From Pseudomonas alloputida (GTDB lineage Bacteria > Pseudomonadota > Gammaproteobacteria > Pseudomonadales > Pseudomonadaceae): a DNA stretch of 64,000 bases. A program made the translations under genes and the position numbers. The notes beneath the pieces were generated by a model, which saw only the letters and a program-made list of their open reading frames with translations, was not told where the DNA came from and did not search any database. Positions 44,029-63,999 of this stretch are shown piece after piece (position 1 is the stretch's first letter; every line of letters begins with the position of its first letter). The stretch lies in assembly GCF_021283545.2 (NCBI RefSeq), contig NZ_CP128540.1:6298501-6362500 (forward strand). The letters are read 5' to 3'.

Positions 44029-45552
44029 TCTCCAGACTTTGCGTAATTTCATCAAGGCTTCGGCTATCTCGCCCTCCGGCACCGCCGCGAAGCCCAGCAC
44101 CAGCCCCGCCCGCTTATCCACAGGCACCTCGCAGTCCGCCAACCAGAAATTGCTCAGTGGCGTCACTTCCACTTCCACCGCCTCAGCCTTGGCCACCAAC
44201 TCCTGCTCCCGAGCAAAGTTATCCACATTGACCTTCACATGCAGCCCAGCCGCCACTTCCGGCATTGCACCCAACCCCGGAATATCCACAGGCCAACCGG
44301 CCTTGAGCACATCGCGCCGCTTCAATGCCGCCTTGCGCATACGGCGGATGTGCCGCTGAAAATGGCCACGGGCCATGAACTCGGCCATCACGCACTGGCT
44401 GCTGACCTCCGAATGCCGCACCGCTATAGCTCTGCCCTGGCTGAAGGCCTGCACCAGTTTCGACGGAAGCACCAGGTAGCCTAGACGCAACGCCGGGAAG
44501 GCGATCTTGCCGAAGGTGCCGACATACAGCACCCGCCCGTGCCGGTCGAGCGCTGCCAGCGGGGCCAGCGGCGCACCGCTGTAGCGATACTCGCCGTCGT
44601 AGTCGTCCTCGATGATCCAGCCGTCACTGCGTTCAGCCCAGGCCAGCAATGCCAGGCGACGTGCAAGGCTCATGGTCACCCCGGTCGGGTATTGGTGTGC
44701 AGGCGTGACATAGGTCAGTCGGCAATCGGTCAACTGTTCCAGCCGGCCGCAGTCCAGCCCGTCTTCATCCACAGGCACGCCACACACCCGGCCACCCGCG
44801 AGCGTGAAGGCATGAGCGGCCGCCCGATAGCCTGGGTTTTCCACAGCCACACCGTCGCCCGGCTGCAGCAGCAACTGTGCACAAAGGCTGATGGCCTGCT
44901 GCGCACCGCTTGTGATCACAATTTGTTCAGCCGTACAGCTCAGCCCCCGCGAGCGGCGTAGATAGGCCGCTATCAGATCGCGCAAAGCCGGCTCGCCAGC
45001 GGGGTCACCATAGCCCAGTTGTGCAGGCGATGGGTTGCGCCAGAAACCCGCCTGTAGCTTGGCCCAGACGTCAAACGGGAACAGGTCGAATGCTGGAATA
45101 CCAACGCGAAAAGCACGCGGCAAACCGCTTCTGGGGGGTGGCAAATGGTTGTTTTTCAGGCGCTGCAGAGGCGCGCTGATATGCCTCCCGCTGGATAAAT
45201 CCTCAGTATTTTCTTGACGAAATGTGGATAAACCTGTTGATAAGCCCAGGTATAACCCTGTGGATACTTGTGTGGACAGTTTTGGCAACCGGCTAACGTA
45301 GGTGCCATCACCGACCCGGCTTTCGATGAAGCCCTCGGCATACAGTTGATCGTACGCGCGCACCACGCTGTTGCGTGAAAGCGCCAACATGGCAGCCAGG
45401 TCGCGCGTAGCCGGCAGACGAGTACCACTGCTCAGGCGCCCATCCAGCACCCGCGCTCGCAACGCCTGATATAGCTGCTGGCTAAGCCCGCGGCTGCGAT
45501 CCAGGGCGATCCCGGCAGGGTCGAAAGGCAGTATGAGGGGCGACTCGCGCAT
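44023..45552 (-). CDS. MocR/PdxR-type GntR regulator with aminotransferase domain
   Basis: 509 residues. N-terminal GntR winged HTH (about 15-85, RLPATRDLAAMLALSRNSVV), a linker (about 88-150) and a class I aminotransferase-like domain (about 150-505) with ITSGAQQAISL, YVTPAHQYPTG, IIEDDYDGEYRY and the PLP-Lys region YVGTFGKIAFPALRLGY. MocR proteins usually sense PLP or an amino compound and regulate divergent genes; here those are the PaiB-like and acetyltransferase genes. The linker DNA is unusual: it carries a 12-bp-period array of DnaA-box-like 9-mers, and more exact boxes occur near the 3' end. Confidence 0.9.
   Translation of the reverse strand: MRESPLILPFDPAGIALDRSRGLSQQLYQALRARVLDGRLSSGTRLPATRDLAAMLALSRNSVVRAYDQLYAEGFIESRVGDGTYVSRLPKLSTQVSTGLYLGLSTGLSTFRQENTEDLSSGRHISAPLQRLKNNHLPPPRSGLPRAFRVGIPAFDLFPFDVWAKLQAGFWRNPSPAQLGYGDPAGEPALRDLIAAYLRRSRGLSCTAEQIVITSGAQQAISLCAQLLLQPGDGVAVENPGYRAAAHAFTLAGGRVCGVPVDEDGLDCGRLEQLTDCRLTYVTPAHQYPTGVTMSLARRLALLAWAERSDGWIIEDDYDGEYRYSGAPLAPLAALDRHGRVLYVGTFGKIAFPALRLGYLVLPSKLVQAFSQGRAIAVRHSEVSSQCVMAEFMARGHFQRHIRRMRKAALKRRDVLKAGWPVDIPGLGAMPEVAAGLHVKVNVDNFAREQELVAKAEAVEVEVTPLSNFWLADCEVPVDKRAGLVLGFAAVPEGEIAEALMKLRKVWRK
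44114..45279. other. Cluster of DnaA-box 9-mers inside the MocR gene
   Basis: Exact TTATCCACA at 44114-44122 and 44219-44227 (plus) and 45223-45231 (minus). One-mismatch forms at 44282, 44765, 44837, 45235 and 45259; CTGTCCACA (two mismatches) at 45271. The last group (45223, 45235, 45247, 45259, 45271) lies at strict 12-bp steps on the minus strand; the 45247 member is degenerate. Two exact copies are read as VDK/VDN, the third as LST. Confidence 0.7.
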
Positions 45553-45641
45553 GATATTGGACCTATGAAAACAGGCATTAATGGATCTTACCCAGAACCA
45601 ATAGCCTGCCTAGGATGGAACCATTCGACAAGGATCCCGCC

Positions 45642-46271
45642 ATGTACAACAGTAAGCCGCATCAGGAACACGACCTCACCCGCTTGCACCAGCACATGCT
45701 AGACACCCGCCTGGCCGTTCTGGTCAGCCAGGGCGAACAGGGCCTTCTGGCCACGCACCTGCCGGTGCTGGTCGATACCGCCGAGGGCGATTTCGGCACT
45801 GTGTATGCCCACCTGGCCCGGGCCAACCGCCAATGGCAAGACCTGCAGCACGGCGGCGAAGCACTGCTGGTATTCCCCGGCGCCGATGCCTATGTCAGCC
45901 CCGGCTATTACCCAAGCAAGGCCGAAAACCCCAAGGTGGTGCCGACCTGGAACTACCTGGCGGTGCACGCTTATGGCCCGGCCGAAGTTATCCATGAGGC
46001 CGAGCCGCTACTGGCTATCGTAAGCCGCCTGACCGACCGCCACGAACAGGGTCGCAGCGAACCATGGAAAGTCACCGACGCCCCTGCCGACTACATCGAG
46101 GGCATGCTCCGCGCCATCGTCGGTATCCGTCTGCCCATCGCGCGCCTGCAAGGTGCGCGCAAGCTCAGCCAGAACCGCTCCGGGCAAGACATCGCTGGTG
46201 TGCGCGAAGGCCTGAGCGCCAGCCCCGATCAACTGGACAATCAACTCGCGGCGCACATGCGCCAACTCTGA
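45642..46271 (+). CDS. PaiB-like FMN-binding negative transcriptional regulator family protein
   Basis: 209 residues. YNSKPHQEHDLTRLHQHML start, LLATHLPVLVD, YVSPGYYPSK and TWNYLAVHAYGPA are typical of the PaiB/FMN-binding split-barrel family. In Bacillus PaiB is linked to the PaiA polyamine acetyltransferase; here two acetyltransferase genes follow, suggesting a comparable unit. ATG 45642 with AAGGAT upstream. Divergent from the MocR gene with 89 bases between. Confidence 0.85.
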   Translation: MYNSKPHQEHDLTRLHQHMLDTRLAVLVSQGEQGLLATHLPVLVDTAEGDFGTVYAHLARANRQWQDLQHGGEALLVFPGADAYVSPGYYPSKAENPKVVPTWNYLAVHAYGPAEVIHEAEPLLAIVSRLTDRHEQGRSEPWKVTDAPADYIEGMLRAIVGIRLPIARLQGARKLSQNRSGQDIAGVREGLSASPDQLDNQLAAHMRQL

Positions 46272-46282
46272 AGGAATAGCCC

Positions 46283-46729
46283 ATGCCCAACCTTACCCTG
46301 CGCCCTGTCACGGCCCAAGATCACGCAGCCTGGCACGCCCTTTGGCAGGCCTACCTGCACTTCTACGAGACCGAGTTGGCCGATGCCGTCAGCCTGAGCA
46401 CCTGGCAACGCCTGCTCGACCCCAGCGAGCCAACCCATTCGGCACTGGCCTGGGTCGACGGCAAGGCGGTGGGGATGGTCAACTTCATCTACCATCGTTC
46501 CAACTGGAGTATCGAGAATTCCTGCTACCTGCAGGACCTGTATGTGGACAGCACGCAACGTGGCCTGGGCATTGGTCGACAGTTGATCGAGCACGTCTAC
46601 ACCACTGCCAAGGCCGACAACTGCATCAAGGTGCACTGGCTGACCCACGAAACCAACGCCACCGCCATCAGCCTGTACCAGCAGGTTGCCGAGCGCTCGG
46701 GCTTCATCCAATTCCGTAAAGGCTTGTAG
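46283..46729 (+). CDS. GNAT family N-acetyltransferase
   Basis: 148 residues, single GNAT domain. DLYVDSTQRGLGIGRQLIEH carries the acetyl-CoA-binding R/QxxGxG/A motif. Substrate unknown; the position after a PaiB-like gene and near polyamine genes suggests a small amine. 11 bases after the PaiB-like gene with AAGGAA before the ATG. Confidence 0.88.
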   Translation: MPNLTLRPVTAQDHAAWHALWQAYLHFYETELADAVSLSTWQRLLDPSEPTHSALAWVDGKAVGMVNFIYHRSNWSIENSCYLQDLYVDSTQRGLGIGRQLIEHVYTTAKADNCIKVHWLTHETNATAISLYQQVAERSGFIQFRKGL

Positions 46730-46736
46730 GCCGCAC

Positions 46737-47408
46737 ATGACAGACGCATTGAACTGGAAACCCGCCGCAACCCCCCAGGCCGAACCCATTGAAGGCCGCT
46801 TCATCCGCCTGGAGAAGCTCGATCCGGGGCGCCATGGCGAAGACCTCTGGGAGGCACTGCAGGGTCCGGCCTCCGATCCGGTGCTGTGGGACTACCTGCC
46901 CTACGGCCCGTTCGCCGAACGCGCCGCCTTCGACCGCTGGCTGGAAGGCAACGCTGCTGGCCGCGACCCGCTTTTCTACACCGTCATCGACCGCGCCAGT
47001 GGCCAGGCCCAAGGCATCCTCAGCCTGATGTCGATCGTGCCTGAACACGGCCGGATCGAGATCGGCCACATTGCCTTCGGTGCCGCCATGCAGCGCACGC
47101 CCAAGGGTACCGAGGCGGTGTACCTGCTGGGCAAGCTGGGCTTCGCGCTGGGTAATCGACGGCTGGAGTGGAAGTGCAATAACGCCAACGCCCGCTCCAA
47201 ACGTGCGGCAGAGCGATTCGGCTTCGTCTACGAAGGGGTGTTCCGCAAGCACCTGGTGGTGAAGGACCATAACCGCGATACGGCGTGGTATTCGATTACC
47301 GATGATGAATGGCCGGCGGTGGCTGCCGGGTTTGAGCGGTGGTTGAGTGAAGAGAACCAGCAGCCGGGTGGCCAGGTGGAAAGCCTTGAGATGTGCCGCA
47401 AAGGTTGA
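46737..47408 (+). CDS. GNAT family N-acetyltransferase (RimJ/RimL-like)
   Basis: 223 residues from ATG 46737, 7 bases after the previous acetyltransferase gene. GRIEIGHIAFGAAMQRTPKG and LEWKCNNANARSKRAAERFG mark the RimJ/RimL-type GNAT branch, which acetylates protein N-termini or small amines. Third gene of the unit controlled, presumably, by the divergent MocR protein. Confidence 0.87.
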   Translation: MTDALNWKPAATPQAEPIEGRFIRLEKLDPGRHGEDLWEALQGPASDPVLWDYLPYGPFAERAAFDRWLEGNAAGRDPLFYTVIDRASGQAQGILSLMSIVPEHGRIEIGHIAFGAAMQRTPKGTEAVYLLGKLGFALGNRRLEWKCNNANARSKRAAERFGFVYEGVFRKHLVVKDHNRDTAWYSITDDEWPAVAAGFERWLSEENQQPGGQVESLEMCRKG

Positions 47409-47469
47409 GCGGTGTGCTGAATCAGCTCCTACAAGGGATGCGCGTTGTGAGGTGCGGGTGAGTCCGGCA

Positions 47470-47495
47470 CAAAAAAAGGGGAGCATCCGCTCCCC
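47470..47495 (-). terminator. Intrinsic terminator of the pyruvate carboxylase operon
   Basis: GGGGAGC/GCTCCCC stem with a 4-base loop followed on the minus strand by seven T, 33 bases past the stop. Confidence 0.95.
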
Positions 47496-47527
47496 AGAGG
47501 TTAACCACTTGTAGATGAGGGCTTAAA

Positions 47528-49336
47528 TCAGCCCTCGATCTCGATCAGGATCTCACCCGGCGTCACGCGATCACCCTTGGCCACATGGATGGCCACGACC
47601 TTACCGGCGATGGCCGCCTGCACTTCGGTTTCCATCTTCATGGCTTCGGTGATCAGGACCGCCTGGCCGGCCTTGACCATGTCACCTTCCTTGACCAGCA
47701 CATCAACGATGTTCCCTGGCATGGTGGTGCTCACGTGGCCAGGGTCGGTCGCTTGCTTGCGCTTGCTGCCGCCACCGCTGACGAACTCGTTGAGTGGCTC
47801 GAATACCACTTCCTCCGGCATGCCGTCGATCGACAGATAGAAGTGACGCTTGCCTTCGGCCTTCACGCCCACACCGGTGATGTCGACGCGGTAGGTTTCG
47901 CCGTGTACGTCGATCACGAACTCGGTCGGCACGCCTTCACCGCCTGGGGCAGCCACGGCACCGGCTTCCGGAATCGGCAGCAGAACTTCAGGCGTCAAGG
48001 TGCCAGCTTCGCGTTCTTCGAGGAACTTGCGGCCAATGTCCGGGAACATGGCAAGGGTCAGCACGTCTTCTTCGCAACGGGCCAGGGCACCGATGTCGCT
48101 ACGCAACTTGGCCATTTCCGGCTTCAGCAGGTCAGCCGGGCGCACATCGATCACTTCTTCGCTGCCGATAGCCTGGCGACGCAGTTGCTCGTTGACCACA
48201 CCCGGGGCCTTGCCATAGCCACCTTGCAGGTACAGCTTCACCTCATTGGTGATGGTTTTGTAGCGCTCACCCGCCAGCACGTTGAAGAACGCCTGGGTGC
48301 CGACGATCTGCGAGGTCGGGGTGACCAGTGGCGGGAAGCCGAGGTCTTCACGCACACGCGGGATTTCGGCCAGCACTTCGTTCATGCGGTTGAGGGCGCC
48401 CTGCTCCTTGAGCTGGTTGGCCAGGTTGGAAATCATGCCGCCCGGTACCTGGTTGACCTGCACCCGGGTGTCTACCGCGGTGAACTCGCTTTCGAACTGG
48501 TGGTACTTCTTGCGCACAGCGTAGAAGTACAAGCCGATCTCCTGCAGAAGCTCCAGGTCCAGGCCGGTGTCGAACTCGCTGCCCTTGAGTGCAGCAACCA
48601 TCGACTCGGTACCCGGATGGCTGGTGCCCCAGGCGAAGCTGGAGATGGCGGTGTCGATGTGGTCCGCGCCATTTTCCACGGCCTTCAGCTGGCACATGGC
48701 TGCCAGGCCGGCGGTATCGTGGGAGTGAATGAACACCGGCAGCGACTGTTCTGCCTTCAGCGCCTTGACCAGCTCGCCAGTGGCGAACGGGGTCAGCAGG
48801 CCGGCCATGTCCTTGATCGCCACCGAGTCGCAACCCATGGCTTCCATCTGCTTGGCCTGGTTCACGAAGGCTTCGATGGTGTGTACCGGGCTGGTGGTGT
48901 AAGCGATGGTGCCCTGGGCGTGCTTGCCGGCGGCCTTGACCGCTTCGATGGCCACGCGCAGGTTACGCACGTCGTTCATGGCGTCGAAAATGCGGAACAC
49001 ATCGATGCCGTTGACCGCCGCCTTGGCGACGAAGGCCTTGACCACGTCGTCGCTGTAATGACGGTAGCCCAACAGGTTCTGGCCGCGCAGCAGCATTTGC
49101 AGGCGGGTGTTTGGCAGCGCTGCGCGCAGCTTGCGCAGGCGCTCCCACGGGTCTTCCTTGAGGAAGCGCACGCAGGCGTCGAAGGTTGCACCACCCCAGA
49201 CTTCCAGCGACCAGTAGCCAACCTTGTCGAGCTTGTCGCAGATCGGCAGCATGTCTTCGGTACGCATGCGGGTAGCCAGCAGGGACTGGTGAGCGTCGCG
49301 CAGGATCGTGTCGGTTACGTGAATTTTCTTGGACAT
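47528..49336 (-). CDS. pycB: Pyruvate carboxylase subunit B (carboxyltransferase plus biotin carrier; OadA-like)
   Basis: 602 residues. Carboxyltransferase TIM barrel (about 5-290, DTILRDAHQSLLATRMRTED), conserved PYC_OADA domain (about 310-480) and C-terminal biotinyl domain (about 530-602) with the EAMKMET site, Lys near 567. Often annotated oadA, but no Na+-pump beta/gamma subunits are present and the partner is a biotin carboxylase, so pyruvate carboxylation to oxaloacetate is more likely. ATG 49336 with AGGA upstream; 11 bases after pycA. Confidence 0.9.
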   Translation of the reverse strand: MSKKIHVTDTILRDAHQSLLATRMRTEDMLPICDKLDKVGYWSLEVWGGATFDACVRFLKEDPWERLRKLRAALPNTRLQMLLRGQNLLGYRHYSDDVVKAFVAKAAVNGIDVFRIFDAMNDVRNLRVAIEAVKAAGKHAQGTIAYTTSPVHTIEAFVNQAKQMEAMGCDSVAIKDMAGLLTPFATGELVKALKAEQSLPVFIHSHDTAGLAAMCQLKAVENGADHIDTAISSFAWGTSHPGTESMVAALKGSEFDTGLDLELLQEIGLYFYAVRKKYHQFESEFTAVDTRVQVNQVPGGMISNLANQLKEQGALNRMNEVLAEIPRVREDLGFPPLVTPTSQIVGTQAFFNVLAGERYKTITNEVKLYLQGGYGKAPGVVNEQLRRQAIGSEEVIDVRPADLLKPEMAKLRSDIGALARCEEDVLTLAMFPDIGRKFLEEREAGTLTPEVLLPIPEAGAVAAPGGEGVPTEFVIDVHGETYRVDITGVGVKAEGKRHFYLSIDGMPEEVVFEPLNEFVSGGGSKRKQATDPGHVSTTMPGNIVDVLVKEGDMVKAGQAVLITEAMKMETEVQAAIAGKVVAIHVAKGDRVTPGEILIEIEG

Positions 49337-49347
49337 TATAGGGTTCC

Positions 49348-50763
49348 TCACAGGCCTGCGTGGGCGGCGATGGCGGCGGCGATGGCCAGGGCCAGCTCTT
49401 CGGGTTTGCGCTTGATCGAGTAGTTGGTCAATTCAGGGTGGCTTTCGACAAAGCTGGTATTGAACTGGCCGCTACGGAATTCCGGATTGCGCAGGATTTC
49501 CTGGTAGTACGCGGCGGTGGTCTTCACCCCTTGCACGCGCATGTCGTCCAGGGCCCGCAGGCCGCGGTCCATGGCTTCTTCCCAGGTCAACGCCCACACC
49601 ACCAGTTTCAGGCACATGGAGTCGTAGAACGGTGGAATGGTATAGCCGGTGTAGATCGCCGTGTCGGTGCGCACGCCCGGGCCGCCGGGGGCGTAGTAAC
49701 GGGTGATCTTGCCGAAGCTGGGCAGGAAGTTGTTTTTCGGGTCTTCAGCATTGATACGGAACTGCAGGGCGTAGCCGCGGTGCTGAATGTCTTCCTGCTT
49801 GACCGACAGTGGCAGCCCCGAGGCGATGCGGATCTGCTCACGAACGATGTCGATACCGGTGATTTCCTCGGTAATAGTGTGTTCCACCTGCACCCGGGTG
49901 TTCATTTCCATGAAGTACACTTCGCCATCGGCGAGCAGGAACTCCACGGTACCGGCGTTCTCGTAATTCACCGCTTTGGCCGCACGCACCGCCAGGTCGC
50001 CGATGTAGGCGCGCTGCTCAGGAGTGAGCTGTGGGCTGGGGGCAATTTCGATGAGCTTCTGGTTACGGCGCTGGATAGAGCAGTCGCGCTCGAACAGGTG
50101 CACTACGTTACCGAAGCTGTCACCGAGAATTTGCGCCTCGATGTGCTTAGGGTTGACGATGCATTTCTCCAGGAACACTTCGGCCGAACCGAATGCCTTG
50201 GTCGCCTCGGAAATGACCCGTGGGAAGTTCTGTTCCAGTTCTTCGCGGCTATTGCAACGGCGAATACCACGGCCGCCACCACCGGAGGTGGCCTTGAGCA
50301 TCACCGGATAACCGATGCGGTCACCTTCGCTCAGGGCTTCATGAATATCGGCAACGTTACCTTCGGTGCCCGGGGTTACCGGCACACCGGCGGCGATCAT
50401 GGTGCGGCGCGCTTCGGTCTTGTCGCCCATACGGCGAATCACGTCGGCGGCCGGGCCGATGAACTTGATCCCGCGCTCGGCGCAAATTTCTGCCAGTTCA
50501 GCGTTTTCCGAAAGGAAACCGTAGCCTGGGTGCAGGGCATCACAGCCGGTTTCCACAGCCAGGTTCACCAGCTTGCGCGGGTTGAGGTAACCGGCCAGCG
50601 GCTCGGCACCGATGCTGTGTGCTTCGTCAGCGCGCTTGACGTGCAAGGCATGCCGGTCGGCGTCGGAAAAGATCGCTACCGAGCGAATGCCCATCTCGGC
50701 GCAAGCACGCACGATCCGAACTGCGATTTCACCTCGGTTGGCGATCAGGATTTTTTTTATCAC
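49348..50763 (-). CDS. pycA: Pyruvate carboxylase subunit A (biotin carboxylase)
   Basis: 471 residues, ATP-grasp biotin carboxylase: KKILIANRGEIAVRI start, KATSGGGGRGIRR glycine loop, EMNTRVQVEHTITE catalytic segment and ALQFRINAEDP. It carboxylates the biotin on PycB. Translation starts with GTG at 50763 and codons 2-5 contain a run of eight A, unusual in this GC-rich genome. Divergent from the LysR gene, whose orthologue in P. aeruginosa (PycR, by recall) regulates it. Confidence 0.9.
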   Translation of the reverse strand: MIKKILIANRGEIAVRIVRACAEMGIRSVAIFSDADRHALHVKRADEAHSIGAEPLAGYLNPRKLVNLAVETGCDALHPGYGFLSENAELAEICAERGIKFIGPAADVIRRMGDKTEARRTMIAAGVPVTPGTEGNVADIHEALSEGDRIGYPVMLKATSGGGGRGIRRCNSREELEQNFPRVISEATKAFGSAEVFLEKCIVNPKHIEAQILGDSFGNVVHLFERDCSIQRRNQKLIEIAPSPQLTPEQRAYIGDLAVRAAKAVNYENAGTVEFLLADGEVYFMEMNTRVQVEHTITEEITGIDIVREQIRIASGLPLSVKQEDIQHRGYALQFRINAEDPKNNFLPSFGKITRYYAPGGPGVRTDTAIYTGYTIPPFYDSMCLKLVVWALTWEEAMDRGLRALDDMRVQGVKTTAAYYQEILRNPEFRSGQFNTSFVESHPELTNYSIKRKPEELALAIAAAIAAHAGL

Positions 50764-50952
50764 TGGAGTCTTCCCAAAGCCGTAGGAACAGTCGAGCCGG
50801 TTCTACCGGTCGGCGCGTGACCAGACGTTGCTAGCCAGTCGCGTATTCACCCTAGCGCTGTAGGTCGATAAACAAAAATCAATATTTGTTAGAGGCTGTA
50901 TTAGCAAAAGCTTATAGTTGGGTAACAAGGTGTTGCCGACGAGCTGATTAAA

Positions 50953-51915: not shown

Positions 51916-52075
51916 GTGCTTGCAGCTCGGGGTAGTCCGCCAGGTCGCGGAGCAATTGACGTTGGTCGCAATAGCTCTCGATCGCGCGGCGGTATTCCAT
52001 ACGGCGCTGATCCTTTTCCTGCTGCTTGCGAGCCTTGGCGTTGGGTTGGTACGTACCGTCGAAGTCACGAGCCAT
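51857..52075 (-). CDS. Small basic/acidic conserved protein (PA3496-like family, tentative)
   Basis: 72 residues, highly charged: MARDFDGTYQPNAKARKQQ, then a helical segment RRAIESYCDQRQLLRDLADY. ATG at 52075 has GGAG seven bases upstream on the minus strand. The family name is a tentative recall. Its C-terminal 19 codons overlap the end of pycR on the other strand. Confidence 0.65.
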   Translation of the reverse strand: MARDFDGTYQPNAKARKQQEKDQRRMEYRRAIESYCDQRQLLRDLADYPELQALTVWQSSAATSPKNVQQAR

Positions 52076-52176
52076 TGCCTGTCTCCCAGATAGTATGCGG
52101 GAGTTTCAGACTGGCCTTGATGGTTTACCGTTTGGCGGTGGAATGGTGACAGAATCGTGAATTTTCACTGCCTGTA

Positions 52177-52273
52177 CCGGCCTCTTCGCGGGCTTGCCCC
52201 GTTCACACAGGAATTGCACCGATTTATAGAAGTGCACAGTACCTGTGGGAGCGGGCAAGCCCGCGAACAGGCC
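52177..52273. repeat. Inverted REP pair
   Basis: CCGGCCTCTTCGCGGGCTTG arm (right part degraded) and facing GGGAGCGGGCAAGCCCGCG arm, between two minus-strand genes. Confidence 0.85.
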
Positions 52274-52287
52274 AGTACAGGTTGAAT

Positions 52288-53154: not shown

Positions 53155-53198
53155 AGGCGGGACTCGGTTATGATCGGCTTGCCGGGTTGTAGCTTTCT

Positions 53199-54872: not shown

Positions 54873-54914
54873 TAGATATTTGCCCCTTACCCGGCATCGC
54901 CCTAGAATGGCCCG

Positions 54915-57101
54915 ATGCGCACAGACGACCTCTCTCTCCTGCTGAATTCCCTCAACGATGCCCAACGCCAGGCCGTAGCGGCCACGCTCGGGCGTCAACT
55001 GGTGCTTGCCGGCGCCGGTTCCGGTAAAACCCGCGTGCTGGTACACCGCATCGCCTGGCTGATCCAGGTCGAGCAGGCGTCGCCGCACTCGATCCTGTCG
55101 GTGACCTTCACCAACAAGGCCGCAGCAGAAATGCGCCAGCGGATCGAGCAACTGCTGGGCATCAACCCGGCAGGCATGTGGGTAGGCACCTTCCACGGCC
55201 TGGCCCATCGCCTGTTGCGGGCCCACTGGCAGGAAGCGCGGCTGGTGCAGAACTTCCAGATCCTCGACAGCGACGACCAGCAGCGCCTGATCAAGCGGGT
55301 CATGCGCGAGTTGGGCCTGGACGAGCAGAAGTGGCCGGCACGCCAGGCCCAATGGTTCATCAACGGACAGAAAGACGAAGGCCTGCGCCCGCAGCATATC
55401 CAGGCGGGGGGCGACCTGTTCCTGGCGACCATGCGCGAGGTCTATACGGCCTACGAGCAGGCTTGCGAGCGCGCCGGTGTCATCGATTTCTCCGAGCTGC
55501 TGCTTCGCGCCCTGGACCTGTGGCGTGACCACCCGGGCCTGCTGGAGCACTATCAGCGACGCTTCCGCCACGTGCTGGTGGACGAGTTCCAGGATACCAA
55601 CGCCGTGCAGTACGCCTGGTTGCGCCTGCTGGCACGCGGTGGCGACAGCCTGATGGCGGTAGGCGATGACGACCAGTCGATCTACGGCTGGCGCGGCGCC
55701 AAGATCGAGAACATTCACCAGTACACCGCCGACTTCCCCGACGCCGAAATGATCCGCCTGGAGCAGAACTACCGCTCCACCGGCGGCATCCTCAAGGCGG
55801 CCAACGCGCTGATCGCCAACAACAGCGGGCGCCTGGGCAAGGAACTGTGGACCGACATGGGCGAAGGCGAACCACTGACCCTGTACGCGGCCTACAACGA
55901 GCACGACGAAGCGCGCTATGTCGTGGAAACCATCGAGAGCCTGGTCAAGCAGGGCAATGCGCGCAACGAGATCGCCATTCTGTACCGTTCCAACGCCCAG
56001 TCGCGCGTGCTGGAAGAGGCCCTGCTGCGCGAGCGCATCCCCTACCGCATCTATGGCGGCCAGCGCTTCTTCGAGCGCGCCGAAATCAAGAATGCCATGG
56101 CTTACCTGCGCCTGATCGAAGGGCGTGGCAACGATGCCGCTCTGGAGCGGGTGATCAACGTGCCGCCGCGCGGTATTGGCGAAAAAACCGTCGAAGCCAT
56201 CCGCGAGCACGCCCGCCACAGCCAGCTGTCCATGTGGGAGGCCATGTGCCAGCTGATCGCTGCCAAGGCCCTCAAAGGCCGCGCCGCCAGTGCCCTGGGG
56301 GCCTTTATCGAGCTGATCGAGGGGCTGGCTGCCAAGGTTGTGGACATGCCGCTGCATACCATGACCCAGACCACCATCGAACAGTCCGGCCTGATCACCT
56401 ATCACCAGGAAGAAAAGGGTGAAAAGGGCCAGGCACGGGTAGAAAACCTTGAGGAACTGGTCAGTGCGGCGCGCAACTTCGAGTCCACCGACGAAGACGC
56501 CGACCTTTCCCCGCTCTCGGCCTTCCTTGGCCACGCCTCACTCGAAGCTGGCGATACTCAGGCTGACGAGCATGAAGACAGCATCCAGCTGATGACCCTG
56601 CACAGCGCCAAAGGCCTTGAGTTCCCATATGTGTTCCTGGTGGGCATGGAAGAAGGCTTGTTCCCGCACAAGATGAGCCTGGAAGAACCCGGCCGCCTGG
56701 AAGAGGAACGACGCCTGGCCTATGTAGGCATCACCCGCGCCATGCGCCAGCTGGTCATGACCTATGCCGAAACACGCCGCCTTTATGGCAGCGAGACTTA
56801 CAACAAGGTGTCGCGTTTCGTACGTGAAATTCCGGCAGGCCTGGTTCAGGAAGTACGCCTGTCCAACAGCGTCAGCCGCCCGTTCGGCGGGGCCAAGACG
56901 GCCACCAACAGCAACCTGTTCGCCAATGCCAGCATTCCGCAGACCGCGTTCAACCTTGGCCAGCGTGTGCAGCATGCGGTATTCGGGGAAGGTGTGATCC
57001 TCAACTTCGAGGGTTCTGGCGCTCAGGCGCGGGTGCAGGTGAATTTTGCCGAAGGTAGCAAATGGCTGATGCTGGGGTATGCCAAGCTCGAGGCTGTCTA
57101 A
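54915..57101 (+). CDS. uvrD: DNA helicase II UvrD
   Basis: 728 residues, SF1A helicase. Walker A LAGAGSGKTRVL (about 30-41), TFTNKAAAEMRQR, DEFQDTN (about 220), GDDDQSIYGWRGA, QNYRST and LMTLHSAKGLEFPYV. The C-terminal GQRVQHAVFGEGVILNFEG is the UvrD tail domain. Acts in nucleotide excision and mismatch repair. Start ATG 54915. Confidence 0.96.
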   Translation: MRTDDLSLLLNSLNDAQRQAVAATLGRQLVLAGAGSGKTRVLVHRIAWLIQVEQASPHSILSVTFTNKAAAEMRQRIEQLLGINPAGMWVGTFHGLAHRLLRAHWQEARLVQNFQILDSDDQQRLIKRVMRELGLDEQKWPARQAQWFINGQKDEGLRPQHIQAGGDLFLATMREVYTAYEQACERAGVIDFSELLLRALDLWRDHPGLLEHYQRRFRHVLVDEFQDTNAVQYAWLRLLARGGDSLMAVGDDDQSIYGWRGAKIENIHQYTADFPDAEMIRLEQNYRSTGGILKAANALIANNSGRLGKELWTDMGEGEPLTLYAAYNEHDEARYVVETIESLVKQGNARNEIAILYRSNAQSRVLEEALLRERIPYRIYGGQRFFERAEIKNAMAYLRLIEGRGNDAALERVINVPPRGIGEKTVEAIREHARHSQLSMWEAMCQLIAAKALKGRAASALGAFIELIEGLAAKVVDMPLHTMTQTTIEQSGLITYHQEEKGEKGQARVENLEELVSAARNFESTDEDADLSPLSAFLGHASLEAGDTQADEHEDSIQLMTLHSAKGLEFPYVFLVGMEEGLFPHKMSLEEPGRLEEERRLAYVGITRAMRQLVMTYAETRRLYGSETYNKVSRFVREIPAGLVQEVRLSNSVSRPFGGAKTATNSNLFANASIPQTAFNLGQRVQHAVFGEGVILNFEGSGAQARVQVNFAEGSKWLMLGYAKLEAV

Positions 57102-57233
57102 AGCCCGCAAGGGTCGGGCCTGCCAACTTTGTAACATTCAAGCAAAAGCTCGAAACACTATGTCGCTGGTCATGTGCCCGGGAACCTGTGCACCATGACG
57201 CGCGTGCAATCCACAACAGGGGATATCCCACTT

Positions 57234-58088
57234 ATGCAACGTTTTCTTAGCATCGCACTGGCGCTCTGCGTCGGCCTGACGCTGAGCCTGGACGCCAGCG
57301 CCAAGCGTTTCGGCGGCGGCAAGAGCTCGGGCTCCGCGCCTATCCACCAGACCCGCCAGGCTACGCCAACCACGCCTGCTGCCGCGCCGACCGTACCTGG
57401 CCGTGCACCGGCTGCCGCCAGCGGTGCTTCGCGCTGGTTGGGCCCACTGGCCGGCCTCGCCGCCGGTGGCCTGCTGGCTTCCATGTTCATGGGCGACGGT
57501 TTCGAAGGCTTCCAGATCATGGACTTCCTGATCGTGGCGCTCATCGCCTTCCTCGTGTTCCGCTTCATCGCCGCGCGCCGTCGCCAGCAGCAGCCGCAAA
57601 TGGCCATGCCAGGCCATGCGCCGATGCAGCGTGAGGCTCACGCGCAGCCTGCGCAGCCGTCGATTTTCGGTGGTTCGGCCGCACCTGCTGCCACAGCCGC
57701 ACCGGTGATCAACGCGCCGGCCTGGTTCAACGAGCAGAGCTTCCTGGCGGCAGCCCGTAACCACTTCCAGTCGCTGCAGCAGCACTGGGATGCCAATGAA
57801 ATGGACAAGATCAGCGAGTTCGTTACCCCGCAAATGCTTGAGTTCCTCAAGCGTGAGCGTGCTGAGCTGGGTGATGGCTTCCAGTCTACCTACATCGATA
57901 ACCTGGAAGTGCAACTGGACGGTGTCGATGACCGCGCCGACCGCACCGACGCTACCCTGACCTTCCGTGGCGTGTCGAAGAATTCGCGCTTCGACCAGGG
58001 CGAAGTGTTCAGCGAAAGCTGGCACATGGTTCGCGCCCAAGGCGAGAACCAGCCTTGGCTGGTAGCCGGTATCCGTCAAAACAGCTAA
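57234..58088 (+). CDS. Tim44-like domain membrane protein
   Basis: 284 residues. Signal-like N-terminus (about 1-23, ending ASA), an Ala/Pro-rich low-complexity region, one or two membrane segments (about 65-85 and 97-116) and a C-terminal Tim44-like domain (about 165-282, with SEFVTPQMLEFLKRERAELG). Function unknown. ATG 57234; AGGGGAT lies a little far upstream. Strong terminator downstream. Confidence 0.83.
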   Translation: MQRFLSIALALCVGLTLSLDASAKRFGGGKSSGSAPIHQTRQATPTTPAAAPTVPGRAPAAASGASRWLGPLAGLAAGGLLASMFMGDGFEGFQIMDFLIVALIAFLVFRFIAARRRQQQPQMAMPGHAPMQREAHAQPAQPSIFGGSAAPAATAAPVINAPAWFNEQSFLAAARNHFQSLQQHWDANEMDKISEFVTPQMLEFLKRERAELGDGFQSTYIDNLEVQLDGVDDRADRTDATLTFRGVSKNSRFDQGEVFSESWHMVRAQGENQPWLVAGIRQNS

Positions 58089-58108
58089 TCGCTGCGTGCT
58101 AAACACAG

Positions 58109-58137
58109 AACCCCGGGCTTGCCCGGGGTTTTTGCTT
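58109..58137 (+). terminator. Intrinsic terminator after the Tim44-like gene
   Basis: AACCCCGGGC/GCCCGGGGTT stem with TT loop running into a T-rich tract. Confidence 0.95.
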
Positions 58138-58201
58138 TTGCCAAAGTGGGCTACTAGGGTATAAGGCGCAGCGTTGTCATCTAGGTCAGAGGAAGTGAAC
58201 C

Positions 58202-58609
58202 GTGGAAGAAGTGATCGAACAACTCCGTGAAGCGAATGAGCCGGTACCGGTGCCCCTGGAGCTTCCCGACGAAGACCAGCTGGTAGAAATCGAAGAGCAG
58301 CTGTTCATCAATATTCCATTCGTGTTCAAAGAGTTTCTGCTGACCGTAAGTGATGTGGTTTACGGCTCCCTTGAGCCAGTTACCGTCACTGATCCGCACT
58401 CGCACACCTACCTGCCAGATGTGGCCTCCAACGCTTGGGATGCCGGCGTACCGCGCGACCTGATTCCGCTGTGCCAGGACGGCGACAATTACTATTGCGT
58501 GGAAGAAGACGGCACCGTGGTGCTGTGGGATGCCGAAGAGGAAGGTGTCGGCGAAGACAGTTGGGAATCGGTGTGGCACTGGGCGCGAGATGTTTGGCTG
58601 GAGAGCTGA
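58202..58609 (+). CDS. SUKH/SMI1-KNR4 domain protein
   Basis: 135 residues, a single SUKH domain. LPDEDQLVEIEEQLFINIPFVFKEFLL is the N-terminal helix pair and WESVWHWARDVWLES the conserved end. Very acidic. The GTG at 58202 has AGAGGAAGTG upstream. SUKH proteins are often immunity proteins for contact toxins, but no toxin gene is adjacent, so a housekeeping role is equally possible. Confidence 0.82.
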   Translation: MEEVIEQLREANEPVPVPLELPDEDQLVEIEEQLFINIPFVFKEFLLTVSDVVYGSLEPVTVTDPHSHTYLPDVASNAWDAGVPRDLIPLCQDGDNYYCVEEDGTVVLWDAEEEGVGEDSWESVWHWARDVWLES

Positions 58610-58681
58610 TCGCTAACGCCCTTATAGATGCGCGATTTGAGGCAGGAAAATGACGTCTTAGCGACTCAAGGTCGTTAAAAT

Positions 58682-58704
58682 CGCCAGGCTTTTTGCGCCT
58701 GGCG
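58682..58704. terminator. Hairpin between convergent genes
   Basis: CGCCAGGC/GCCTGGCG stem around a T-rich loop, between the SUKH and antiporter genes. No following T tract. Confidence 0.45.
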
Positions 58705-58763
58705 ACATCGCTATAGCCCCATCTCCTCGGGCGGGCGAGATACTTTGCCCGGGGCAGACCCCC

Positions 58764-60524
58764 TCAGTGCGAGTTCTCGCGACTGTTCTCCAGCGTCTCC
58801 AGCAACGCGATCTGCATGCGCGTGTGCACGCGGATGAGCCAGCGCCACAACAACGCCACCACCACCGCAGCTACCACGGCAATCACCAGCAGCAATTCGC
58901 TGGTGGGCAGAATGCTGGCGGACAATGCCGACAGCAGCAGGAAAATCACCAACAGCGACAACAGCGGGATCACTTCGGCGATCACACGGCGCACGCGCTG
59001 GGTATGTCGCCCGGCCATTTCCGGCTTCACGCCCATCTCTGCCAGCAGCATCGAGAGTGCTTTTAGCTTGCGGTACGCGGCGATCAGGAATGGCAGTGAC
59101 AGCAACAACGCTGCCCCCCAAATGACGGCCTTCTGATGGCTGACATCGCTGACCCACTCGCTGAGCCAATTGCCGAGACGCCCTGCAAAATAACCGCCAC
59201 TGAAGAAGATGGCGATCACCAGCGCCAGGTTCACCCCCACCTGCAACAGGATGCGCCGGATCATCGCCGCCAGCATGGCACTCTCGCCCTGCGGCTGGAT
59301 GTTGCGCAACCACTCGCCATACAACGACAGCACGCGCGCGAGGCGGGCGGGCACCACATTGCCCAGTTTCTGCGACAACGGGTCAGCCGCGCGGATCAGG
59401 TAGGGTGTCAGCAACGTAGTGATTGCCGATACTGCGACCGCCACCGGGTATAGGAAGTCGCTGGTCACCTGCAGGGTCATGCCCAGCGCGGCGATGATGA
59501 AAGAGAACTCGCCAATCTGCGAAAGCCCCATGCCCACGCGTAAAGACGTACGCCCGTCATTGCCGGCTATAAACGCCCCCATGCCGCAAGACAGCATCTT
59601 GCCCAGTACCACCGCCAGGGTGATGACTACGATCGGCCAGGCATAGTCGATGAGCACCTCAGGATCAATCATCATACCGATGGCGACGAAGAATATGGCG
59701 CTGAACAGGTCGCGTACGGGCTCAATCAAGCGTTCAATCTTCAACAACTGGCGTGATTCGGCCATGATCGCGCCAATCAGGAAAGCGCCCAGAACCATAC
59801 TGTATTCCAGCTTCACGACCAGCAGGCAGAAGCCGAAACACAGGCCCAGAACGGTGATCAGCAACATTTCGTTGCTTTCGAACCTTGCGACGTAGGCCAA
59901 TAACCGCGGCACCAGCAAAATACCGATGACCAGAGCGACAACCATGAACAGCGACAGCTTGCCGACTGTGGAGAACACCTCGCCCGAGCTGACCGTGCCG
60001 CTGACCGCGATACCCGACAGCAGGGCAATGATACCGATGCCAAGAATGTCCTCGACGATCAGCACGCCGAAGATCAGCTGGGCAAAGCGCTCGTTCTTCA
60101 TCTTCAAGTCGTTGAGCGCCTTGACGATGATGGTGGTGGAGGAAATGGCCAGGATGGCGCCCAGGAACAGTGAATCCATGGTGCTCCAGCCAAACCAGCG
60201 GCCAATCTCAAAACCGATCCAGATCATCAGGACGATTTCCAGGAACGCTGCGATGAACGCCGTGGCACCGACCTTGAACAGCTTGCGCAAGCTGAACTCG
60301 AGCCCCAGGCAGAACATCAGGAAGATCACCCCCAGTTCGGCGAGGGTCTTGATGGTGTCTTCGTCATGAATCAGGCCGAATGGCGGAGTGTGCGGGCCAA
60401 TGATGAAGCCGGCGACAATGTAGCCCAGCACCACCGGCTGCTTGAAACGGTGAAAAAGAATGGTGACCACGCCAGCGACCAGCATGATGACTGCCAGGTC
60501 CTGGATGAAGCTGATGGCATGCAT
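58764..60524 (-). CDS. CPA2 family cation:proton antiporter (KefC/YbaL-like, without RCK domain)
   Basis: 586 residues from ATG 60524, with AAGGAG upstream. Na+/H+ exchanger domain with about 12 hydrophobic segments (1-385, KQPVVLGYIVAGFIIGPHTP and VLGAFLIGAIMAES). Unlike KefB/KefC, the C-terminal part (about 400-586) has no Rossmann RCK/TrkA-N motif but more membrane segments (about 440-460, 480-500 and 530-570) and a short tail. Cation specificity unknown. Confidence 0.87.
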   Translation of the reverse strand: MHAISFIQDLAVIMLVAGVVTILFHRFKQPVVLGYIVAGFIIGPHTPPFGLIHDEDTIKTLAELGVIFLMFCLGLEFSLRKLFKVGATAFIAAFLEIVLMIWIGFEIGRWFGWSTMDSLFLGAILAISSTTIIVKALNDLKMKNERFAQLIFGVLIVEDILGIGIIALLSGIAVSGTVSSGEVFSTVGKLSLFMVVALVIGILLVPRLLAYVARFESNEMLLITVLGLCFGFCLLVVKLEYSMVLGAFLIGAIMAESRQLLKIERLIEPVRDLFSAIFFVAIGMMIDPEVLIDYAWPIVVITLAVVLGKMLSCGMGAFIAGNDGRTSLRVGMGLSQIGEFSFIIAALGMTLQVTSDFLYPVAVAVSAITTLLTPYLIRAADPLSQKLGNVVPARLARVLSLYGEWLRNIQPQGESAMLAAMIRRILLQVGVNLALVIAIFFSGGYFAGRLGNWLSEWVSDVSHQKAVIWGAALLLSLPFLIAAYRKLKALSMLLAEMGVKPEMAGRHTQRVRRVIAEVIPLLSLLVIFLLLSALSASILPTSELLLVIAVVAAVVVALLWRWLIRVHTRMQIALLETLENSRENSH

Positions 60525-60803
60525 GGCGTGATACTCCTTTTCTCGTCTTGTGAATGCCTGGGCAGACCGCTCCTCTGCCGAGGCAAACCTGAGCGAGCAG
60601 CAAGTACATACTGTATTGAATCCGGGAACACCCATGTTGCATGGGCGTACTCAGGTTAACATCGCGCTCCGCCGCAAAAAGCCAGTGCAATATGCAGAAA
60701 CAGATCGGCTGGAAAAGCGCCGCTGATGGCATGATCAGCGTGACGATGATGCGCCAGCCAACGTCCCGTATCAGCAAGGCACATTCAAAAGAGGGGAACA
60801 GCA

Positions 60804-61349
60804 GTGTCAGCAGATAACGCCCTCCATTCGCCCGATTCAGCGCAACCTCACCGTGAGCACACTATGGAACCTGGAAACGCCCAGCTGAGCATGACCGTCC
60901 TGATGACCCCGGACATGGCCAACTTTTCTGGCAACGTACATGGCGGCACCCTGCTCAAGTACCTCGACGAAGTGGCTTATGCATGCGCCAGCCGTTATGC
61001 CGGCAGTTATGTGGTAACCCTGTCGGTCGACCAGGTGATCTTCCGTGAACCCGTGCACGTGGGTGAACTGGTGACCTTCCTGGCGTCGGTCAACTACACC
61101 GGCAACACTTCGATGGAAGTTGGCATCAAAGTCGTGACCGAGAACATTCGCGAGCGCTCGGTGCGCCATTCCAACAGTTGCTTCTTCACCATGGTCGCGG
61201 TCGACGACAACCGCCGCCCGGTGCCGGTGCCACCACGCCAGCCGCACAGCAGCGAAGAAAAGCGCCGCTTCCTGCAAGGCCAGCAGCGCCGTCAGATCCG
61301 CCAGGAACTGGAAAAGCGCTATCAGGACTTGAAAACCGACGCCATTTAA
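60804..61349 (+). CDS. Acyl-CoA thioesterase (hotdog, BFIT/YciA-related)
   Basis: 181 residues from GTG 60804 (GAGGGGA seven bases upstream); ATG 60864, giving 161 residues, begins where homologues usually begin and may be the true start. The hotdog core has the [19 protein letters not shown] helix with catalytic Asp, and [14 protein letters not shown] charged C-terminal tail ([17 protein letters not shown]) extends beyond the core. Last 4 bases overlap the end of convergent pdxY. Confidence 0.87.
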
Positions 61350-62218
61350 AGCGCCAGTAACTGCGCTTCGAAGCGCACCCGTGGGTGCGCAATGCGGTCC
61401 TGGGCCCGTACCAGCTGCAATTCGTAGCTGGCGCAAGCCTGGGTTTCCAGCAGCACTTCATGCACTGCCGCAGCCGTGAATTCGAATGCCTGCACCCAGC
61501 TGTCGCCAAGCAGCACACGCGCCAGGAACAGGCCTGAGGTCAGGTCACCCACCCCTACCGGCTGACGCGGAAACGCCAGCAGTGGGCGGCGCAAGTGCCA
61601 GCTGTGCTCGGCGGTCACCAGCAGCATTTCGAAATGCTCTTCGGCCCGCCCGGGGTACGCCAGGTGCTTGACCAGTACAACCTGTGGTCCACGCTGCAGC
61701 AGGCTGCGCGCCATGTTCACGCAATCCTCCAGCGACTGGGCGCGGCGCCCACAGAAGCTGTCCAGTTCCAGCTGGTTGGGGCACAGGATGTCCGCTGTGG
61801 CTGCAGCCTCGTCAAGCAGAAACTCACTGACTTCGGGCGGCACGATGCAGCCCTTTTCCGGGTGCCCCATGACCGGGTCGCACAGGTATAACGCTTTTGG
61901 GTTTACCGCCTTGATCCGCTCGACGCCGGCCAGGATCGCTCGCCCTTGTTCGGCACTGCCCAGGTAGCCGGAAAGCACCGCATCGCAGTGGCCCAGCTCG
62001 CCGATGTTGGAAATGCCTTCCACCAACGCAGGAATTTGCGCTGGGGCAAGCACTTCCCCCGCCCACTGGCCATACTGTGTGTGATTGGAGAACTGCACGG
62101 TATTGAGGGGCCAGGCATTGACCCCGATACGCTGCATGGGAAATACCGCGGCGCTGTTGCCGGCGTGGCCGAACACCACGTGGGACTGAATGGCGAGCAG
62201 GTGCGGGGTACGTTTCAT
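61346..62218 (-). CDS. pdxY: Pyridoxal kinase PdxY
   Basis: 290 residues, ribokinase-like fold. [20 protein letters not shown] start, LCDPVMGH and [20 protein letters not shown] with the catalytic Asp (GVGD in place of the usual GTGD). Phosphorylates pyridoxal in the B6 salvage route. The frame is open far upstream; ATG 62218 fits the family length. Confidence 0.93.
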
Positions 62219-62338
62219 GCGGGAGGTTTCCAAAGCTGTTTCTAGGATTGTGCGCAGCGCAGTATGAACTTGATTGCTACCTGTACGACAGGCCAGGAAC
62301 GCAGTTAAGCTGGATCTACCTGTTTGGAGCATATGCAA

Positions 62339-62731
62339 ATGTTGACCCTGGAGAACCTCTTCGTCCTGATGCTGGTAGCCACGGCAGGCGCCTGGTTGTG
62401 GCACAACCATGGGTTGCGTGAAAAGGCCCTGGAACGGGTCAAACAGCATTGCGCCAAACTCGACCTGGAGTTGCTTGACGATGCCGTAGCGCTCAAGCGT
62501 ATCGCCTTTGTCCGGGATGCCAATGGCCGCAAGCGCCTGGCACGCGTCTATGCCTTCGAATTCACCGTCACGGGTGAGCAACGTCACCCCGGCACCGCGA
62601 CCCAGTTCGGCGCCCACAGCGTGCAGATCGAACTAGCGCCCTACCCGTTCGAAATCAAGACCCCACCACGCGCCGACAACGTCATAGAGATGCAGCAATG
62701 GCGCCAGGAGCATAACCGCTGGCGCAACTGA
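62339..62731 (+). CDS. DUF3301 family membrane-anchored protein
   Basis: About 130 residues. One N-terminal membrane segment (about 4-22), then a cytoplasmic domain with [20 protein letters not shown] and [13 protein letters not shown], the DUF3301 signature. ATG 62339 is chosen because GGAG lies nine bases upstream; an ATG at 62333 is too close to it. Function unknown. Confidence 0.85.
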
Positions 62732-63703
62732 TCAACTGACGCGACATTCATTCAACCCGGCTTGCAACGCGGGTTGCGGTTGCGGCTGATGGAAAATCAG
62801 CTCGATACGGCTGTCCCTGCGCCAGTCGCTGGGCTGCCAAGCGGGCATATCCCCATTCAGCCCATTGAATGACCACCAGCCCTCCATGCTGTGGATAACT
62901 CCCTTGGCCCGTCGCCATGGCAAAGCACACAAGAAAGCTTTCAGCCGCTGTGGATAAAACTGTTGTCCAGGGTGCCACCGCCAGCCAATACTCCAACCAC
63001 CCTCTCCCTGCTGGACAAGGCAAATCGGTTGACTCGGGTCAGCCCACAATGCTGCTGGAGCGATTCCAAGATTGTCGACAATCCTGTTTTTCAAGAATGG
63101 GCTGTCAACAATCTGTGGAGATACCGTCGGGAGGCCGGACAAAGGCAGCTGCCCTTGCACGGTCCACATGATCTTCTTTTCTTGAAATTTATTACTTATC
63201 AACAACTTATGTATTTCATCCACAGCCTCTGACTTATTGAAAACCACGCTTTCAGAGGCGTTGAAAGCCTGCTGTTGAGCCTCTGGAAGAGGCTCGTTTC
63301 GAGCCATGGCCCGGGCATCCACAACCATCAGGAGTGGCTGAATTGTCAGCACTCCAACCCAAGGCGCTTGTTGCAGCTGAGCCAGCAGCTGCAAGGGATG
63401 GCCCAGGCCGGAAGGTTCGATAAACAGCCGGTCAGGCCGCGATTTGCGCAGCAGTCGTCCCAGGCCCACCTGGAACGGCATGCCGTTGACGCAGCACAGG
63501 CAGCCGCCTGCGACCTCGCCGATGGCGATGCCGTCTTCGTCACGGCTGAGTAAGGCTGCATCCAGGCCGACAAGGCCGAACTCGTTGATCAATACCGCCC
63601 AGCGCTCGTTGGCTGGGCGCTGAGCCAGCAAGTGACGGATCAGCGTGGTCTTGCCAGCACCAAGGGGGCCGGCAATTACATGGGTGGGAATGTTCTGCAG
63701 CAT
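62732..63703 (-). CDS. COG0523 (CobW/P47K) family metal-chaperone-type GTPase
   Basis: 323 residues. G1 motif GPLGAGKTTLIRH, the metal-binding CLCC motif in GEVAGGCLCCVNG, and NKSEAVDE at the position of the NKxD base motif, although the Asp is displaced. C-terminal CobW_C-like part after about 200. Members deliver metals such as zinc. The gene holds two exact DnaA boxes, two near boxes and an AT-rich patch (63165-63245) unlike its neighbours. It directly abuts DUF3301, convergent, with no gap. Confidence 0.85.
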   Translation of the reverse strand: MLQNIPTHVIAGPLGAGKTTLIRHLLAQRPANERWAVLINEFGLVGLDAALLSRDEDGIAIGEVAGGCLCCVNGMPFQVGLGRLLRKSRPDRLFIEPSGLGHPLQLLAQLQQAPWVGVLTIQPLLMVVDARAMARNEPLPEAQQQAFNASESVVFNKSEAVDEIHKLLISNKFQEKKIMWTVQGQLPLSGLPTVSPQIVDSPFLKNRIVDNLGIAPAALWADPSQPICLVQQGEGGWSIGWRWHPGQQFYPQRLKAFLCALPWRRAKGVIHSMEGWWSFNGLNGDMPAWQPSDWRRDSRIELIFHQPQPQPALQAGLNECRVS

Positions 63704-63999
63704 GGGGTGGCTTCAGGCGGCGGTGATGCCTCACTATGCGCCGTCAAGCCAGCCAGTCAAGGCTGAGCAGCAAACGCCCCCGCTGCGCCGAAGGTGACCG
63801 ATGCACCAAGCCTGCCCCTTCGTTACCCTGCCATTGTTCGCCTTTAAGTATCGCAACCTCGGCGGCTTGCAGGTGTTGGATGTTATCCACAGGTGGCTGA
63901 GCTGTGTGTAACTCTCCACGACAGCTATCCCGCTCTTGCAACCATTCACTACCTGGGCCGACGTAAGTGGTGAGCAAGCGCAACGGTACGTTATCCACA
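62890..63999. other. Cluster of DnaA-box 9-mers with AT-rich patch
   Basis: Exact boxes at 62890-62898 and 62949-62957 (minus) and at 63883-63891 and 63991-63999 (plus); one-mismatch forms at 63196-63204 and 63216-63224 (plus). An AT-rich stretch (63165-63245) begins with GATCTTCTTTTCT at 63170, similar to the oriC 13-mer GATCTNTTNTTTT. A 14-bp palindrome GATTGTCGACAATC lies at 63070-63083. It spans coding sequence of two genes and may continue past the window edge. Confidence 0.65.

Follow-up and report, generated by a model that had tools for sequence, protein, structure and literature searches.

The stretch analysed here (hereafter, the window) is a 64-kb segment of the Pseudomonas alloputida chromosome (C1:6298501-6362500 of a single contig of 6438596 bp; genome G000), and the element in question is the 9-mer TTATCCACA, an exact DnaA box. 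The window holds eight exact copies on both strands, while 100 dinucleotide-preserving shuffles yielded a mean of 0.13 and a maximum of 1 (window GC, 61.8%). Seven of them lie inside genes for a MocR-type regulator (three boxes within 44114-45231) and for CobW and DUF1826 proteins (four boxes within 62890-63999). The eighth (17588..17596, + strand) is a single exact match within an open frame and a member of the wider distribution described below. A first-pass annotation, made from the sequence alone, had given all eight coordinates and strands correctly, and its assumptions of about 62% GC and a chance expectation well under one agree with our counts, as do its peptide readings of the boxes (VDK/VDN, LST, VIHS and YPQ). 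It had also assigned the seven clustered boxes to two stretches of about 1.1 kb; three and four boxes were rightly placed, but the second cluster overruns the end of the window.

The MocR-type gene (44023..45552, - strand) encodes a GntR domain and a class I/II aminotransferase domain, as identified by Pfam. Two of its exact boxes, at 44114..44122 (+; VDK on the gene strand) and 44219..44227 (+; VDN on the gene strand), were kept in 4/28 and 5/29 aligning orthologues, respectively. The third belongs to a structured tandem array, a feature absent from the first-pass annotation. The array (45223..45279, - strand) comprises five head-to-tail sites with a 12-bp period and lies in the linker between the two Pfam domains. 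Read 5' to 3' on the - strand, its members are CTGTCCACA (45271-45279), GTATCCACA (45259-45267), the degenerate TTATACCTG (45247-45255), TTATCAACA (45235-45243) and the exact TTATCCACA (45223-45231), and its translation is a tetrapeptide repeat. The typical array across loci reads CTATCCACA, GTATCCACA, TTTTCAACA, TTACCCACA, TTATCCACA, with the box-like 9-mers placed 3 bp apart, and encodes LSTK-VSTG-FSTG-LPTA-LST.

To evaluate the array we compared 30 MocR loci (L151-L180), chosen as the best among 54 matching genomes. The exact box at 45223 was retained in 29/29 orthologues, which placed it at the top of 1519 windows, and only 3/358 residue-matched windows were as good. Five sites with at most 2 mismatches at period 12 were present in 23/30 loci, compared with a mean of 0.085 loci (maximum 13) for permuted motifs. 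Most orthologues outside the nearest relatives carry an extra exact box 46 bp onward. No other array of at least three sites was found in the origin stretches of G000, G003 and G067; those of G000 include its own degenerate array, and those of G003 and G067 stop short of their MocR genes. The window array is ~95 kb from dnaA, and among 37 tabulated genomes with both on the same contig the median distance of the MocR gene or array from dnaA was 96 kb, with 35/37 within 160 kb and the other two (G029, G062) at 1.3-1.4 Mb. Elsewhere in the class, a locus in another family (L250; G101 C148:6766-6798) has three exact TTATCCACA in a row at the 12-bp period.

Two lines of evidence indicate that the array is selected as DNA, namely its codon choice and its retention in two genomes in which the MocR gene has no match. 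Across 30 genes, the array threonines (anchor box excluded) are encoded by ACA in 103/105 cases, as against 40/465 elsewhere. A tandem three-site pattern with at most 3 mismatches was found in 40/59 Pseudomonas genomes with zero control matches, and in 3/132 class genomes, about one per family. By-hand comparison of coordinates placed the pattern in the MocR gene in 37/40 genomes; G077 has it only elsewhere, and G002 has a second pattern besides the one in MocR. In G018, the array is retained, and a TGA interrupts the MocR frame around it. The remaining two genomes, G058 and G064, carry the pattern and have no MocR match at 1e-100. In both, the array adjoins the same two neighbour genes, which by eye we take to be acetyltransferase-like: window positions 46281-47361 match at 71-72%, and flanks further away match at 79-87% (47.5-51 kb on one side and 37-40.5 kb on the other). 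The array of G064 aligns to window positions 45223-45276 at 87%. At these two loci the only matches to the MocR gene were the array itself, over 29 residues in G064, together with weak scraps, and the gene next to MocR had no match; a short MocR-like scrap, read by eye, stands just before the array of G058 (L238). Constraint on the peptide was considered as the cause of the array and is countered by both the codon choice and the survival without MocR.

The second cluster comprises seven exact boxes in 1.85 kb, spread over three genes with one reading direction. By Pfam, its hosts are, in order, a CobW-family GTPase (62732..63703, - strand) with two boxes, a DUF1826 protein, and a second CobW-family GTPase whose three exact boxes lie beyond the window end, at window-equivalent positions 64475, 64575 and 64744. 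We compared 80 Pseudomonas loci, the best of 364, divided by list order rather than by a tree into putida-like (L071-L113) and fluorescens-like (L114-L150) loci. The 80 loci contain 360 boxes in 1.64 Mb, while 400 permuted motifs had a mean of 2.7 and a maximum of 41. As many as 314/360 boxes lie between -1200 and +900 of the cobW start, and no locus lacks a box in this interval. The cluster's most broadly conserved box reads VIHS in cobW (62890..62898, - strand). It was exact in 77/80 loci despite host proteins averaging 68% identity to the query, it ranked 2 of 961 9-mer windows, and 0/29 residue-matched windows reached 77/80. The other box in this gene (FYPQ, nucleotide 746; 62949..62957, - strand) was exact in 14/80 loci, all within the 43 putida-like ones. 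In the DUF1826 gene, the box at nucleotide 479 (63883..63891, +; PVDN on the gene strand) was exact in 35/39 putida-like loci with residues unchanged in 21, and the box at 63991..63999 (+; HVDN on the gene strand) was exact in 26/39. At nucleotide 823 of the second cobW, the box was exact in 36/43 putida-like loci while residues were unchanged in only 10/43. Since such boxes stay while residues change, nucleotides are held where residues are not. The first-pass annotation had proposed that the nucleotide motif rather than one peptide is what recurs, and box conservation and array codon choice both bear this out.

Both clusters are part of a genome-scale pattern. The DnaA frame begins at contig base 1. 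The frames that follow resemble, by eye, what we take to be dnaN, recF and gyrB, and those at the opposite contig end presumably correspond to parA, rsmG, mnmG, mnmE, yidC and rnpA. Four exact boxes lie in the last 350 bp before dnaA, and the oriC position in this genome is the contig junction; the P. putida oriC has been placed between rpmH and dnaA (PMC3056050). The window, which the first-pass annotation had rightly supposed to be close to oriC, is 76-140 kb away from dnaA.

In total, the genome holds 115 exact boxes (54 forward, 61 reverse), compared with 11 for the reversed pattern. By distance from dnaA, successive origin-to-terminus tenths contain 50, 24, 27, 5, 5, 2, 0, 2, 0 and 0 boxes, so that 101/115 fall within the 30% nearest oriC and the remaining seven tenths hold 14. 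Half of the boxes lie within 10.5% of the replichore from the origin, and density declines on both arms. The 400 kb around oriC contain 45 boxes, and twenty 20-kb terminus stretches contain 0. The 100 kb at the origin have 31 exact boxes, compared with a mean of 0.28 per 100 kb for permuted motifs, and single-mismatch variants reach a maximum of 11 in the origin 400 kb. When all 9-mers were ranked by occupied 2-kb bins the box came first, while by raw counts one repeat-derived 9-mer stood above it. Base composition was rejected as the cause on the basis of the permuted motifs and the terminus control, and a repeat or mobile element as carrier was rejected as well, the flanks of the 45 boxes having no common sequence. 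Boxes are also clustered locally beyond the gradient: 39 neighbour pairs lie less than 1.2 kb apart, while 2000 jitters of +-25 kb had a mean of 15.3 and a maximum of 28. The concentration in two window loci noted in the first-pass annotation is therefore real, but these are just two among many clusters in an origin-centred halo and such concentration is not peculiar to them. A similar density in most genes was not found by the genome-wide count. No strand preference was seen (26+/33- and 28+/28-), and 39/45 origin-region boxes lie in stop-to-stop open frames of at least 450 nucleotides, on both strands.

Several further observations concern this region. Further dense clusters occur at C1:337448-339543 (L202; six boxes in 2.1 kb) and C1:38431-43815 (eight boxes in 5.4 kb). 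Around the 45 boxes near oriC (L031-L050), the preceding base is A in 1/45 and G in 23/45, and the following base is G in 23/45, a hint of a longer preferred site. Some 9-mers, such as GATGGTGAC, are abundant in the origin 400 kb yet occupy few 2-kb bins, a pattern suggestive of a large, internally repetitive gene.

The halo is found in other genomes and tracks dnaA rather than coordinate 0, as judged from three genomes in which dnaA lies away from that coordinate: the first tenth, centred on dnaA, holds 42/80 boxes in G003 (dnaA at 1.45 Mb), 37/84 in G020 (1.62 Mb) and 21/50 in G012 (0.13 Mb). Genome lengths used for these gradients, and for that of G014 below, were rounded or estimated. Boxes numbered at least 4x the control in 31/35 same-genus relatives. 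Positions are conserved as well. Among G000 origin-region boxes that could be aligned, 19/28 were exact in G003 and 16/31 in G067, against 5.0 and 3.5 expected from an identity-matched background, and permuted 9-mers were kept in 74/377 and 68/351 cases, respectively. Four of the kept boxes in each genome are those of oriC. Unaligned boxes were excluded (17/45 for G003, for which only +-100 kb was compared, and 14/45 for G067). Many positions are thus held while others turn over. In a comparison of 41 of 140 class rows, chosen by eye, G000 had the highest count, the second ratio (after G139) and the fourth excess per Mb, so its box excess is strong but not unique within the class. G139, from another family, has 48 boxes and 3 control matches, a ratio above that of the window genome. 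A Pfam model for SeqA had no match in the window genome and matched 1/140 class genomes (the E. coli control was positive); a correlation of SeqA with box number is therefore impossible.

Overall, the DnaA of the window genome shares 64% identity with that of E. coli; block 420-479, the DNA-binding end, has 54/60 identical residues as counted by eye, and the protein matches the structure of the E. coli C-terminal domain (1j1v). The 9-mer is the same sequence as the boxes of the genome's own oriC, and TTATCCACA is given as the P. putida high-affinity box in a passage of PMC4285127. Binding of DnaA at halo boxes is strongly implied. We consider it probable that the boxes are DnaA sites kept by DNA-level selection, which together form an early-replicating sink with the array as a site of DnaA oligomerization. 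The 115 high-affinity boxes are mostly within open frames in the origin region and fall in density from oriC. Half of this set is situated in the first 10.5% of the replichore and is therefore duplicated shortly after initiation, so that under this explanation it could take up free DnaA at a time when a second initiation has to be avoided. An origin-centred set of early-doubling strong sites fits titration. The MocR array would be a specialised member of the sink, in which a strong box is backed by weaker sites that all point the same way and recur every 12 bp, as one would expect where DnaA assembles head to tail. This array probably serves to nucleate a DnaA filament and would be a compact sink, datA-like in logic. 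We infer DnaA occupancy, oligomerization, titration and an effect on timing. In P. putida, an increased amount of the native DnaA failed to repress dnaA (PMC8203912, which cites Ingmer and Atlung 1992); this fits the soaking-up of extra DnaA, and other reasons are possible.

The halo was compared with systems described in other bacteria. In E. coli, DnaA boxes of a broad motif list are in excess near oriC (centisomes 98 to 5), and PMC12371093 presents evidence for titration; the string "Pseudomon" occurs 0 times in the text of that paper. The two species share an over-representation of boxes around oriC, a proposed DnaA trap and early doubling, and in Pseudomonas, too, boxes are in excess and denser near oriC. 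They differ in that exact strong boxes number 31 per 100 kb at the origin here and 4 in E. coli MG1655, and in that the lagging-strand preference described for E. coli boxes (PMC12371093) was not seen here. In Bacillus subtilis, the deletion of six oriC-proximal DnaA-box clusters led to early initiation, although another passage of the same review states that in this species no clusters with significant roles had been identified (PMC5295017). The Pseudomonas clusters resemble these in being several, outside but near oriC (the 39 close pairs versus 15.3 expected), and thought to bind DnaA; unlike them, they lie in genes, and the window boxes are embedded in codons and show conservation between species. 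The existence of a Pseudomonas counterpart to such clusters, which the first-pass annotation had put forward as inference, is now well founded by conservation. At the E. coli oriC, R1 and R4 anchor arrays of low-affinity sites; in such arrays the oligomer starts on strong boxes and grows along the weak sites (PMC4285127). A strong box beside closely spaced, weaker sites of the same orientation, a proposed oligomer guide, is likewise what 23/30 MocR loci contain; however, the MocR array is ~95 kb from dnaA, within a gene, and has a 12-bp period. New relative to E. coli titration and the B. subtilis clusters are the exact strong boxes, largely coding, and the coding-embedded tandem array. A search by title and abstract opening, mostly of literature outside subscription, found no published report of a Pseudomonas box halo or MocR array.

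A stronger proposal would treat the MocR array as a new class of replication-control element: a filament nucleation site in a coding linker, where the requirement for tandem boxes in the DNA is what gave rise to the peptide repeat. Copied shortly after oriC and independent of IHF in assembling DnaA, this element would, with the halo, constitute the Pseudomonas initiation brake. We advance this only tentatively and regard it as rather less likely to be right than wrong. An unlikely alternative is that, instead of passively binding DnaA, the array and clusters act on its bound nucleotide, either by datA-like ATP hydrolysis or by DARS-like exchange of ADP for ATP. Ordered sites at conserved places near oriC do resemble datA and DARS, which both lie at a conserved distance from oriC in E. 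coli (PMC4585315), and datA likewise has its boxes grouped (PMC4585315, PMC5295017); the MocR gene or array keeps within 160 kb of dnaA in the 35/37 genomes given above. However, datA and DARS are described as non-coding, while both window clusters lie in genes. In addition, datA works with IHF (PMC5295017), yet a strict IHF consensus was found within 150 bp of 0/45 boxes, a weak test given a random mean of 0.22 and only 7 matches in 400 kb. The window clusters are not to be filed as datA because they are coding and this weak test revealed no IHF site. DARS2, for its part, carries IHF and Fis sites.

Regulation of the host genes by DnaA as a transcription factor at these sites is more improbable. 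DnaA controls transcription in several bacteria (PMC8203912), and the boxes sit in genes of coherent operon-like rows. Nevertheless, the boxes are mostly inside long open frames on both strands (39/45), the host genes are unrelated to each other, and the array remains where MocR is missing. It is similarly improbable, and we would hardly expect, that the halo marks an origin domain for chromosome organization or segregation instead of serving to count DnaA, whether DnaA or some other protein recognizes the 9-mer. A polar distribution around oriC would also fit a domain-marking site such as parS, but the motif is that of oriC's own boxes (four exact copies adjoin dnaA) and the DnaA protein itself is well conserved; no search for another reader was made. 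Finally, an explanation by chance, by composition or by constraint on the peptides, together with shared descent, is scarcely credible and, short of a mutational bias specific to the 9-mer, largely refuted: the origin 400 kb are slightly GC-poorer (59.1% versus 62.0%), the species are related by descent and one repeat-derived 9-mer exceeds the box in raw counts, but permuted motifs average 0.28 rather than 31 per 100 kb, single-mismatch variants do not exceed 11 in 400 kb, the box ranks first by 2-kb bins, conservation surpasses identity-matched and residue-matched windows, and the array shows its codon choice and outlives its gene.

Several results weigh against an early-replicating DnaA sink held by selection. 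With the looser consensus TTWTNCACA, the Pseudomonas and E. coli origins have 45 and 17 matches per 100 kb, so the contrast between them shrinks. The trait is not genus-wide: four genomes (G013, G014, G027, G028) fall below 4x the control, and G014 has no clear gradient (9/32 boxes in the first tenth). Given these four, the genus may have acquired the halo, or lost it in part, during its own history. Because of shared descent, counts of species are not independent of one another. Boxes also turn over, as 3/7 in cluster 2 and 2/3 in cluster 1 were kept only in near relatives or in fewer than half of the loci. The DUF1826 boxes were found in 0/34 fluorescens-like loci having the gene, and the three boxes of the second cobW in 1, 0 and 0 of 37. 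Of the latter, the box at nucleotide 992 was exact in just 13/80 loci, and the one at nucleotide 1092 was exact in 36/43 putida-like loci, but 12/361 residue-matched windows did equally well. As for the array, 7/30 loci failed the strict test, and the window's own is among them because its degenerate third member, TTATACCTG, breaks three in a row; in G029 the array is 1.33 Mb from dnaA.

A separate arrangement of the same 9-mer was observed far from the origin. An inverted exact pair, TTATCCACA-N5-TGTGGATAA, lies at C1:4872632-4872654 (L201), ~1.57 Mb from dnaA. Such pairs, with varying spacers, occur in 60/132 gammaproteobacterial genomes with zero reversed-control matches, and many copies have a third box-like piece nearby. 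In 7/20 loci compared (L214-L233), the pair adjoins a gene that encodes PriA domains. The pair may constitute a separate promoter element under DnaA control.

Whether chromosomal DnaA titration is relevant beyond E. coli is a question that Pseudomonas can address, as its box gradient is steep, its sites are exact and its clusters are defined, conserved and mostly genic. Because the clusters lie mostly in genes, titration is testable by synonymous recoding that leaves the proteins unchanged. The array and the clusters suggest that replication control can impose codons on unrelated genes, and in the extreme a peptide repeat, with consequences for the interpretation of conserved linkers and of codon usage close to origins.

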